Source: a virus. Taken from it: 36,645 nt of DNA. This document shows, piece by piece, positions 4,106 to 21,393 of this stretch. The position numbers were made by a program, and so were the translations under genes. Below the pieces are notes generated by a model. The model searched no databases, was not told the origin of the DNA, and was given only the letters and a program-made list of their open reading frames with translations. Within the stretch, counting starts at the first letter, position 1; each line of letters opens with the position of its first letter. The DNA is taken from positions 1-36,645 of the IMG/VR virus record IMGVR_UViG_3300050123_000027. One strand, 5' to 3'.

Positions 4106-4735
4106 TTATATAACATGTGCCCATGCTTTTTTCTGTTTAATTTTATAAATAATCGAAGCTTCCATTTTATAGCTTTTTGCTATCCTGGTTACCGGAACTC
4201 CCATTTCAATTAATTTTTTAATATCACTAACCTGATTTTCATTAAGATTTGCTTCGGGATTTCTATATACTTCATCACTTCTTCTCTTTTCTTTACCATC
4301 CAAGGAATTATTCTTAGAAGTAACCAAAAATAAATGCTTTGGATTTGAGCATCGAAGATTATCGCATTTATGACAAACAATCATTCCTTGTGGAATATCT
4401 CCGAAATTAACTTTCCAAGAATATACATGAATGCTAATGCGGGGCTCAGTTCTGCAATGATTCATACGAACATACTTATCATTTCCTCGCTTTGTTACCC
4501 AATCCCAGCATCCAGGCCCCTTGATAACATTTCTTTCAAAGTATTTATGCAAATGCTCAGCCTTTTCAGAATCGGACAATTCAGAAAACTTTTTACGAAC
4601 CAACCATTTTGGAGAAGCTAATCGATAGCATTTATTACTACAAAATCGTGGCATTGCTGACCGGATAGATCTAGTTGCTGTATGGCTAATCCCACACGAT
4701 AAGCAATCATATGTATATTCTTTCATCATTTTCAT
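4106..4735 (-). CDS. HNH homing endonuclease, free-standing
   Basis: About 209 residues from ATG 4735; GTG 4744 or ATG 4726 are alternatives. The N-terminus has a four-Cys zinc site (CLSCG ... FCSNKCY). The middle has W-D-W and R-x-S-x-H-x-x-S-W blocks, then the HNH core GMIVCHKCDNLRCSNPKHLF (His, Asn and His visible). The C-terminal 45 residues (NENQVSDIKKLIEMGVPVTR and onward) form a helix-turn-helix module shared with the HNH protein at 20825-21328. The gene lies between a fibre gene and a small gene with no split gene around it. It therefore looks like a free-standing invader that cleaves DNA at a specific site. A 12-bp hairpin precedes it. Confidence 0.85.
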   Translation of the reverse strand: MKMMKEYTYDCLSCGISHTATRSIRSAMPRFCSNKCYRLASPKWLVRKKFSELSDSEKAEHLHKYFERNVIKGPGCWDWVTKRGNDKYVRMNHCRTEPRISIHVYSWKVNFGDIPQGMIVCHKCDNLRCSNPKHLFLVTSKNNSLDGKEKRRSDEVYRNPEANLNENQVSDIKKLIEMGVPVTRIAKSYKMEASIIYKIKQKKAWAHVI

Positions 4736-4745
4736 ATGTATCACC

Positions 4746-15460: not shown

Positions 15461-16061
15461 TTATATAGCTAGAGTTGCGCGAAGATTCAATATCCAAAGA
15501 TCATTTAAGATTCTTGGAACTTCAGCGAATTTATAACCAACTGAAGCATTTAACGCTAATGGACCATCATATATTGGTGGGCGATAGATAAAGCTTGCGC
15601 TGTAACCATCTTGTTCAATACATGCATACGCTTCCATTCCAACGCAGAAGATGTTGTATACATCTGCGCCAAGAGATGAAGCATTAGGAGAGACTGATCC
15701 GATAGATGAGATCAAGAAACGAAGGTTGCCAATAGCACCCCATTCTGAACGCAATGCATTCATAGGAGCAGGATATTGGTTCTTTTGGATGAAACCATTA
15801 ACGTTATCAAGATTTCCGGTCAACTGTGTTGAACATAATGCGAAGTACGCATCACGAACTGGAGCTGTACCAAACTTATCTTCACCTTCAATGTTGTCCA
15901 TAATTGTGTATGCATTGTTGTTTAACAATGAGCGAACAATTGTGTCGACATCAGAACGTGTGATTTCTGTTGGGTTGTCACCATTAACACCACCGGTACA
16001 GTTAATAAATGATGCAGTAGCCGCAAGCATATCACGGGTCAACTGATCTTCAGTTTGTCTT
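15461..16061 (-). CDS. Major capsid protein, exon 2 (N4-gp56 type)
   Basis: Exon 2 of the split capsid gene. It opens in phase 2 (third base of a Leu codon), then RQTEDQLTRDMLAAT, and runs to TAA at 15461. With exon 1 it restores the conserved order LG-x-x-LRQTEDQLTRDMLAA of N4-gp56 family capsids. Residues that follow include GVNGDNPTEITRSDVDTIV, YFALCSTQL and a C-terminal domain ending NLRATLAI. Just upstream is an in-frame stop (TGA), so without splicing exon 2 cannot be read from exon 1. The protein forms the HK97-fold shell. A stand-alone start at ATG 16042 would lack the conserved N-terminal half. Confidence 0.88.
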
Positions 16062-17275
16062 CATTCTGTTACTTTTATGACCTATAAAACAATATAGGCG
16101 GATGGTCTTGTTAATCCCATCTCAACGAATTTCTTCGCTGTTCGGACTATCGCATACGCATTTTCAGCGTCTTCACCGTTTAGTCTCTGCGGGTCTTGAA
16201 ATTTCTTCAGTTTGGCTGTAATATTATTAATGACACTATTAACTTTTAAGGATAACCCATGTTTAATAAATTTGATCTTGCTTATGCAGCTGGCTATATA
16301 GACGGAGACGGATGCCTGTATATCGGCACCTTCGCAACCACTAAAGGCACAACTTATGAATTTTCTATACAAGTTAGCAGTGTTAAAAAAGAATCTACAG
16401 ATTGGCTCAAGAAGACTTTCGGTGGATCGACTCGATCTAAAGAAACAGAAGGAAACAGAAGAACGCCCCATGTCTGGACAATTAAAGGAAAGAAAAGCTT
16501 GAGCCTTGCTGAAGCAATACTTCCTTATCTTGTCGATAAAAACCAAGAGTGCCAAATATTTATTGAGTTCGCTTTGTCTATTATTAACAACAATTTTCAA
16601 CCGCTTAAAGATGAAGGCGTTGCTGATAGGGTTGCTCTTATTGAAAGAATAAGAGAAATCAGACACCACACCGGAGGCCTCAGAAGACAATTCATTTGTC
16701 GAATGAAAGGTATCTATGCATCGCTCACTCCGACTGATCTTGAAGTCGCCTATATGGCAGGACTCATAGATGCAGAAGGATGCTTCCGAGTTAAAAAATG
16801 GTCGGTTAAAAATAAACCAAATCCGGTATTCGCTATATGCCTTGAAATTGGCAACACCAAGAAAGCATTTTTTGAATGGATCTTGATGCGTTTCGGTGGA
16901 ACACTCGTGTTTGTCGAAGCTAAAACAGAAAATAGAAAACATTCTTGTATTTGGACTTTGAGCTCTAAACGACTCAATTTCTTCATTAATCGCTTTTGTT
17001 CTTATCTCAAGATCAAGAAGCCTGTTTGCGAAAAGATTATTGAATTCTTCAAAACCAATCTTCCCAACGGCGGAGATCGACACTCTGATGCCTTTAAAAA
17101 GACATATAGTGCCATTCTCGAAGTCCGAGAGAAGATTATTTCTGATATTCATAGTCTCAACGCTAAAGGTCATAATCCATCCGATTTATAACAAGTTCCC
17201 TCTGATTGCCTTCGCCATAACGCGGTCAGGGTTCCCAGTTTGTTTAGGCAAAGTTTAATGTCGCCAAGTACGTCT
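16062..17275 (-). ncRNA. Group I intron in the major capsid gene
   Basis: Core elements in minus-strand order: the P1 helix pairs exon GTCGCT (17281-17276) with GGCGAC (17265-17260), leaving the U-G wobble at the 5' splice site. The P element (CTGGGAACCCTGACC) and Q element (AATCAGAGGGAAC, 17207-17195) follow, and CCCT/AGGG can form P4. R is CAGAGACTAAACGG (~16190-16176), and a P8 hairpin CGC/GCG follows it. S is GATAGTCC (16151-16144), and GACTA/TAGTC makes P7. The intron ends in G (16062), exon 2 starts AAG and can pair with CTT before the guide (P10). Removal joins Leu-Arg in the correct capsid frame. The homing-endonuclease ORF lies between Q and R, so in the P6 region, antisense. Confidence 0.93.
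16259..17191 (+). CDS. LAGLIDADG homing endonuclease, antisense to its host intron
   Basis: 310 residues; ATG follows AAGGAT by 7 bases. Both dodecapeptide helices are present: LAYAAGYIDGDG at residues ~7-18 and VAYMAGLIDAEG at ~163-174. Their acidic last positions (D and E) serve as metal ligands, so the protein is a single-chain double-motif enzyme. Each half repeats the saddle fold, with FGGSTRSKE and FGGTLVFVEA, the strands that read DNA. It is encoded on the strand opposite to the intron and capsid mRNA. Its own promoter, or antisense transcription, must therefore express it. It should cut intronless capsid alleles near the exon junction. Confidence 0.93.
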   Translation: MFNKFDLAYAAGYIDGDGCLYIGTFATTKGTTYEFSIQVSSVKKESTDWLKKTFGGSTRSKETEGNRRTPHVWTIKGKKSLSLAEAILPYLVDKNQECQIFIEFALSIINNNFQPLKDEGVADRVALIERIREIRHHTGGLRRQFICRMKGIYASLTPTDLEVAYMAGLIDAEGCFRVKKWSVKNKPNPVFAICLEIGNTKKAFFEWILMRFGGTLVFVEAKTENRKHSCIWTLSSKRLNFFINRFCSYLKIKKPVCEKIIEFFKTNLPNGGDRHSDAFKKTYSAILEVREKIISDIHSLNAKGHNPSDL

Positions 17276-17662
17276 AGCGACACACCAAGACGAGCAGCAC
17301 ACTCATTGAGAACAGGGTCCTGATTTTGCAGGGTCACTTGTTCATTGAGTGTCACATAGGTCAATTCTCTGTCTTGGTTCATACGGCACCTATCTTTTAC
17401 CGTAAAACGAAATCTTCGCATCGATATCGACTGCGGTTAGATTTTGTGGCGGAGGAGTTACACCTGAGTTACCAAGTGGCACCATAGCCGTGTTTAATGG
17501 GTTGTACCGACGCATACGAAGAGTATTACCACCATTACGGGGCATATTCTTTTTCATAGCCGGGATTTTGTGAATCATATTTGGAACTGGCACTGACAAC
17601 AGCTTATAACTAAAGCTTTGTTGTACTGGACTCGGAAGGGAAGAAGTGGTTGTAATTGCCAC
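17276..17662 (-). CDS. Major capsid protein, exon 1, with internal stop and frame change
   Basis: GTG 17662 follows AAGGAG by 5 bases. Reading begins MAITTTSSLPSPVQQSFSYK and continues to SFYGKR, then meets TAG at 17392-17390 (90 residues). The next part, TYVTLNEQVTLQNQDPVLNE then CAARLGVSL, is in the +1 frame. N4-gp56 capsids keep the equivalents of FYG and YVTL adjacent, so about 37 nt (17398-17362) look extra. Removing one A from the AAAA run at 17398-17395 would also restore one frame, but would add about 12 residues. ATG 17382, after AGGTG, could start a separate second chain. A TACGG/CCGTA hairpin (17404-17382) spans the stop. The exon ends with CT of a Leu codon at the intron border. 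Confidence 0.82.
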
Positions 17663-20824: not shown

Positions 20825-21328
20825 TTAAAATCTCCAGTTTTGTTTAGACTTTATAGCTTGTATCGCCGACTTAGAAACTCCAAAATCTTTTCCAATTCTT
20901 GTACAAGTGACACCCATTTCAAGAAGCTTTCTTATCTCGAAAACATTATTATCAGTTAATTTAGAGTTAGGACCCTTTTCACCGTTCATAGGATTCTCGA
21001 TATGCATCTTTACTAAGTTTTCACTCTTTCCAAGAAATTGGCAGTTATCTGGAGAATAATCTTTCGAAGAATCAATTCTATCTAGAGCTAATCCAACCTT
21101 CCAATTATTATCCAAGCACCACTGATAAAACATGCTAGGATTTAACTTCCATTCATCGCACACCTTTATGCCTTTACCTTGATAATAAGGAAAGTCATTT
21201 GGCGCTGCATTATAACACCTAGTTAAGATGGTATATCGCAAACGATACAATGGATGTTTAATACTAATTTCATGAACTTTACCATTACTTACAATTTTTG
21301 AGTTGTAATTCCAACCTTTAGCACACAT
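20825..21328 (-). CDS. HNH-type homing endonuclease, free-standing
   Basis: 167 residues from ATG 21328, after AAAGGA; ATG 21364 is a possible upstream start. The core follows the phage HNH pattern GKGIKVCDEW, FYQWCLDNN and LDRIDSSKDYSPDNCQFLGK, with D/R/N at expected positions. The C-terminal 45 residues (KLTDNNVFEIRKLLEMGVTC, KDFGVSKSAIQAIKSK) form a helix-turn-helix related to the tail of the HNH protein at 4106-4735. It splits two small virion genes but no single gene is visibly interrupted. It looks like a free-standing invader. Confidence 0.82.
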   Translation of the reverse strand: MCAKGWNYNSKIVSNGKVHEISIKHPLYRLRYTILTRCYNAAPNDFPYYQGKGIKVCDEWKLNPSMFYQWCLDNNWKVGLALDRIDSSKDYSPDNCQFLGKSENLVKMHIENPMNGEKGPNSKLTDNNVFEIRKLLEMGVTCTRIGKDFGVSKSAIQAIKSKQNWRF

Positions 21329-21393
21329 AGAATATTCCTTTCCAATATGTCCCAAGTTTATCATTTACAACCCTTTATTGTAAGATATGCCAT

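Follow-up and report, generated by a model that had tools for sequence, protein, structure and literature searches.

A 37-nt guides-only mini-intron in a phage coat gene, predicted to be excised by the ribozyme of a neighbouring group I intron

The coat (major head protein) gene of the virus described here is interrupted twice, by a large group I intron (the big intron) and, 86 nt upstream of it, by a 37-nt insertion that we predict, with a probability of about three in four, to be a non-autonomous mini-intron excised by the ribozyme of the adjacent big intron (Table 1). The window, meaning the whole stretch of DNA analysed, corresponds to a 36645-base virus record of IMG/VR and contains terminase, P22-type portal and major head protein genes; the 3′ coat exon matches the PHROG major head protein. 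Alignment and covariation establish, at the level of sequence, both insertions, three pairings that covary, a one-sided dependence and a group I core. One natural group I ribozyme would probably remove two introns of one mRNA, namely itself and a guides-only satellite of 28–41 nt, which would make the big intron unlosable.

Table 1 Features of the interrupted coat gene (window positions).
Feature	Position	Strand	Basis or remark
Coat (major head protein) exon 1a	17399..17662	-	GTG start 17662, end ...TTTACGGT; alignment to intronless relatives
Mini-intron, 37 nt, coat nt 264, AAAAGATAGGTGCCGTATGAACCAAGACAGAGAATTG	17362..17398	-	spliced alignment; 55 distinct units in relatives
Mini-intron guide 1, ATAGGT and GCCGTA	17382..17393	-	P1 + P10, covariation in relatives
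Mini-intron guide 2, ACCAAGAC	17371..17378	-	pairs exon 17291-17284
Middle coat exon, 86 nt, mini-intron to big intron	17276..17361	-	spliced alignment
Group I intron (big intron), coat nt 350, 1214 nt	17275..16062	-	covariance model, core covariation in relatives
Big-intron P1	17283-17276:17265-17258	-	GTGTCGCT:GGCGACAT, U.G at splice site
Big-intron P3	17253-17247:16177-16171	-	
Big-intron P4	17238-17235:17205-17202	-	
Big-intron P7	16185-16181:16149-16145	-	
Coat exon 2	15461..16061	-	alignment to intronless relatives
Antisense LAGLIDADG homing endonuclease gene, 310 aa, P6 loop	16259..17191	+	Pfam, I-MsoI match, codon-position pattern
Promoter-like TTGAAA-17-TAATAT	16196..16224	+	34 nt upstream of endonuclease ATG; weak in window alone, stronger in relatives

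The first-pass annotation had placed a minus-strand group I intron in the capsid gene, and the ends that it assigned, 17275 and 16062, proved right. The last base of the upstream exon is a U (17276) paired to G 17265, the intron terminates in G 16062, and joining 17276 to 16061 gives GVS-LRQTEDQLTRD, the same residues as in dozens of intronless relatives, which in alignment represent exact empty sites for the big intron. As Rfam's group I model performs poorly on this intron branch, we built a covariance model from 12 introns (195–251 nt) that lack a homing endonuclease gene (HEG) in relatives' coat genes, with the window kept out of the training. This family model matched the window in two minus-strand pieces, 16062–16246 (65 bits, E 2e-15) and 17081–17275 (13 bits, E 0.02), which together give the exact intron ends. 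Across the P3–P9 core of the 12 HEG-less introns, P7 included, 96.8% of cells were paired, with 31 doubly changed pairs, versus 42–48% of cells in slid control alignments; the core comprises P3–P8 with a P7/P3 pseudoknot, as expected of group I. The Rfam group I model RF00028 scored 15 bits for the window and 22 for the relative L067, below its gathering score of 50 bits, and Rfam at gathering scores returned no matches in the window and 18 relatives; that score is a detection threshold rather than a structural feature, and membership rests on the family model and the covariation. These results indicate that 17275..16062 is a group I intron inside a phage coat gene, the splicing of which is predicted.

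Removal of the big intron had also been taken to restore the capsid frame. The junction residues agree with that claim, but the frame stays broken after the big intron is removed, since the 37-nt insertion, which the earlier reading had overlooked, remains; the coat needs these 37 nt removed too. Retained, the insertion puts an in-frame TAG at 17392–17390 and a +1 frameshift into the gene. Inserts of 28–41 nt occur at the identical codon junction in many coat genes of relatives, and the frame is broken in every case. The coat frame of the window is closed as read, which would fit a broken coat gene containing either a defunct relic or an artefact of assembly. Against this stand the 55 distinct units, which come from many metagenomes, covary and keep a constant geometry, and coat exons that spliced alignment finds intact on both sides; we regard the idea as extremely improbable. 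An assembly error or plain frameshift had been considered for the 37 nt and was dropped after alignment of the relatives. No coat gene with the mini-intron was found to have a near-identical counterpart without it that could represent a spliced copy; the best pair was about 91% identical.

The insertion carries splice-site signals of the group I type. In the window, it reads, between 5′ exon TACGGT and 3′ exon ACCTAT, AAAAG, ATAGGT, GCCGTA, TGA, ACCAAGAC and AGAGAATTG. Within guide 1, GCCGTA pairs with the 5′ exon (17404–17399) in a P1 of 6/6 pairs with a U.G at the splice site, and ATAGGT pairs with the 3′ exon (17361–17356) in a P10 of 6/6 pairs. A linker of 3 nt (TGA in the window) leads to guide 2, the target of which, 17291–17284, directly adjoins the big-intron P1 strand 17283–17276. 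All 55 units have a P1 with U.G and a P10, as group I introns do, and the terminal G of the mini-intron is present at 18/18 unbiased loci and in the window. At 28–41 nt, there is no room for P3–P8 and hence for a catalytic core of its own; by this anatomy, the mini-intron falls short of an autonomous group I intron. Involvement of the HEG in the mini-intron was rejected, since HEG-less big introns (195–251 nt) keep the mini-intron.

We then evaluated the guides over the 55 distinct mini-intron units. For P1, the combination TACGGT:GCCGTA was found in 50 units and TATGGT:GCCATA in 4. The P10 base opposite the third position of the Thr codon is Watson–Crick paired in 55/55 units (G:C 35, A:T 10, T:A 5, C:G 5), following all four codons. 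The Tyr-Gly codons read TACGGT in 12/12 mini-bearing genes versus 7/51 mini-free genes. The set was enlarged by pattern scans in which a GTGCCGTA-like guide was a requirement; the conservation of guide 1 is accordingly judged on the unbiased set (19/19 including the window, one with GTGCTGTA) and on the four TATGGT/GCCATA units, obtained by scanning without regard to the mini-intron. A broad 15-base pattern scan gave mostly chance matches.

Guide 2 follows the big intron. Its target ends 8 nt before the 5′ splice site of the big intron, flush with the 8-bp P1, in three site classes whose guide-2 sequences are completely different: GTTTATCTG:CAGATAAAC for introns at coat nt 290, CTGATTCTG:CAGAATCAG at 314 and ACCAAGAC:GTCTTGGT at 350. 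A linker of 3 combined with an offset of 8 was the unique optimum register, with a mean of 7.53 of 8 pairs, while a few 290-class guides form only 3–6 of 9 pairs at the strict register. Permutation of own versus swapped partners gave p<5e-5 for the 290 class and 3e-4 for the 314 class; p was 1 for the 350 class, the window's own, whose four members are too alike to discriminate. Five pair types occur at one guide-2 position, and in genes with two such big introns (L205, L210, L214), guide 2 matches one only. Mean duplex energies lay between −8.8 and −11.7 kcal/mol for cognate guides and between −2.3 and −4.8 kcal/mol for shuffled ones, and unconstrained folding returned all three helices in 82–100% of cases versus 0–2% with a shuffled guide. 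On the alignments, all three pairings (P1, P10 and guide 2) covary.

The two insertions also occur together. Among 78 informative coat loci of the unbiased set, 18 carry the mini-intron together with one of the big introns (at 290, 314 or 350), 60 carry neither, and 0 are discordant; introns at 26, 36, 38, 93, 157, 166, 210, 237, 296, 312 and other positions have no mini-intron of their own. In reverse scans, which searched for big introns and ignored the mini-intron, a mini-intron lay upstream in 12/12 cases at 314, 4/4 at 350 and about 35 of 39 at 290. Four 290 introns are without it (L241, L246, L248, L254), three of them confirmed by spliced alignment. Conversely, 55 of the 56 distinct mini-intron units could be judged downstream, and a big intron at 290, 314 or 350 then followed in 55/55. 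This distribution indicates a one-sided dependence, in which the mini-intron needs the big intron. All mini-bearing cases come from metagenome contigs of one group of uncultivated phages, and shared descent explains part of the co-occurrence, whereas the covariation is independent of descent. A comparison of the cores of mini-less 290 introns with those of mini-bearing ones could show big-intron changes that serve the mini-intron.

A short insert of this kind could instead remain in the mRNA and be bypassed during translation. This is what happens to the 50-nt insert in gene 60 of T4, likewise a short frame-breaking insert near a homing endonuclease and possibly group I derived (PMC5009743). 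The size is similar, the take-off codon would be Gly (GGT), many units have early stop codons, and a stem-loop stands right behind the take-off; yet there is no stop immediately after the take-off codon, and the landing codon, which must match the take-off codon in T4, does not match here. None of the inserts ends in GGN (0/55), the last codons being AAG 21, TTG 11, ATG 10, TAG 9 and others 4. The T4 insert also has no guide to a neighbouring intron (PMC5009743), and bypass leaves unexplained the register of guide 2 to the big-intron 5′ splice site, the covarying P10 and the dependence on the big intron. Because the T4-type landing codon is lacking, we rejected ribosome bypass, which we hold to be very unlikely. 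Splicing from the mini-intron 5′ site directly to the big-intron 3′ site was rejected as well, as the 26, 50 or 86 nt lost, all of them 2 mod 3, would break the frame.

Excision by the neighbour's ribozyme is favoured because the mini-intron has every splice-site signal of a group I intron, no core, a frame break and an address for one downstream intron; its removal at the RNA level by that core is the most likely reading. P1, P10 and the terminal G fit group I chemistry and are silent on whose core is used, and free introns can act in trans, so that another agent, a trans ribozyme or a protein, might remove the mini-intron while guide 2, for example, delays big-intron splicing until the upstream site has been processed. 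This is unlikely, given that guide 2 addresses one particular downstream intron and that no mini-intron was seen without it. In excision by the big intron's ribozyme, pairing of guide 2 with the exon, flush with the big-intron P1, would tether the mini-intron beside that ribozyme, and its P1 and P10 would dock in the shared core in a geometry that we infer. The mini-intron would probably be excised first, by guanosine attack between 17399 and 17398 followed by ligation to 17361; guide 2 would thereby be freed, and the big intron could then splice itself. With a mini-intron in place, loss of the big intron would be lethal, locking it in, and the mini-intron may be carried along with the big intron in homing.

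The LAGLIDADG open reading frame was confirmed to lie antisense to the big intron, between the Q and R elements and hence in the P6 loop, with its stop codon abutting the 5′ strand of P6. The protein has two LAGLIDADG domains (Pfam 8e-12) with the motifs AAGYIDGDG and MAGLIDAEG, acidic residues included, and its nearest solved relative is I-MsoI (4e-7); by homology, it is a LAGLIDADG homing endonuclease with putative cleavage of the intronless site. Compared with L042, amino acid identity is 57% in the HEG frame and 39% in the sense ORF that overlaps it; substitutions number 111/79/165 at codon positions 1/2/3, a pattern identifying the plus-strand frame as the conserved, coding one. Expression from an antisense transcript, as the first-pass annotation proposed, is most likely, probably from the gene's own promoter: a Shine-Dalgarno AAGGA stands just 5′ of the HEG ATG, and many antisense HEGs in relatives have promoter-like sites and Shine-Dalgarno sequences upstream. 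The window's promoter match is 9/12, reached by 13% of shuffles and so no better than chance; several relatives have 10–11 of 12 matches at the same place. In sample 3300050122, two other contigs with sequence identical to the window (L001/L212; L004) stop at opposite borders of the 47 nt upstream of the HEG at window 16206–16252, which suggests that the assembly broke at the HEG or that the population varies there.

An antisense ORF with LAGLIDADG motifs is present in 37/98 distinct coat introns, at nt 290, 296, 312, 314 and 350. The antisense transcript might pair with the unspliced intron and regulate splicing or its timing, which would be compatible with the mini-intron explanation and would fit both the conservation of the orientation across five sites (37 distinct introns) and the promoter-like sites of the relatives. 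We nevertheless consider such regulation quite unlikely: related introns at 36/38, and two introns at 312, have sense LAGLIDADG genes, and HEG-less introns are found at the same coat sites. Since sense-HEG and HEG-less introns exist, splicing does not need the antisense transcript.

The coat gene is an intron hotspot, the 98 distinct introns occupying 24 insertion positions (L004–L232, e.g. L029, L205, L224), with up to six insertions in a single gene of relatives and a near-identical 3′ end (...GGTCATAAAAGTAACAGAATG) common to many. Another group I intron match (L056:3839-4176, 90 bits) lies upstream of the coat gene, probably in a different gene, and, away from the coat gene, the window's minus strand carries two more endonuclease genes, of the HNH type (4106–4744 and 20825–21364). 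Among the isolate phages searched, coat relatives were distant only (about 25% identity) and HEG relatives partial only (28–30%). Close coat relatives were found in MAGs labelled Simkaniaceae and Parachlamydiaceae (MAG contigs L233 and L234), as well as Lokiarchaeota and Thermotoga; two cases are on phage-sized contigs, and the binning is possibly wrong. From these labels, chlamydial hosts for this phage group are a possibility worth testing.

If the proposed excision is true, a natural self-splicing ribozyme serves a second, core-less intron, which suggests a route by which selfish introns could lock themselves into essential genes and offers a simple model for guide-only introns becoming dependent on shared catalytic RNA. 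A step of this kind has been proposed in the descent of the spliceosome from group II introns. The group III mini-introns of euglenoids are reduced and presumed to depend on catalytic RNA elsewhere, but are chloroplast introns derived from group II. For a natural core-less group I mini-intron, we found no paper among the open-access articles searched.

What the antisense endonuclease contributes on its own is a large, conserved sample of an arrangement that is widespread in this phage group and, in kind, already published. Mycobacteriophage LittleE has a major capsid intron, the splicing of which was shown by RT-PCR, with a bottom-strand LAGLIDADG ORF (I-CreI-like); LittleE is an unrelated phage, no mini-intron was reported, and its protein has 177 aa versus the two-domain 310 aa here (Pope et al. 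2013, PMC3706429). Group I introns of Didymium nuclear rDNA likewise contain an antisense HEG, for which an own promoter was proposed, but the HEG is of the His-Cys box type, in eukaryote rDNA, with a spliceosomal intron inside it (PMC9548176). Comparable to the proposed excision of the mini-intron is the action of engineered group I ribozymes that excise internal RNA segments, namely trans-excision-splicing, which uses a group I core, P1 and P10, and spliceozymes, which use P1 and a second recognition helix (PMC4094466, PMC6155759). Those systems are engineered and carry their guides in the ribozyme; in the coat gene, by contrast, it is the segment to be excised that contains both guides, with the adjacent intron as the presumed ribozyme. 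Excision of the mini-intron by its neighbour's ribozyme, the best explanation of the sequences, would be the natural counterpart of engineered trans-excision-splicing, and its guide geometry, in which the linker measures 3 nt and the tether sits flush with P1, would then be usable in the design of excision ribozymes.
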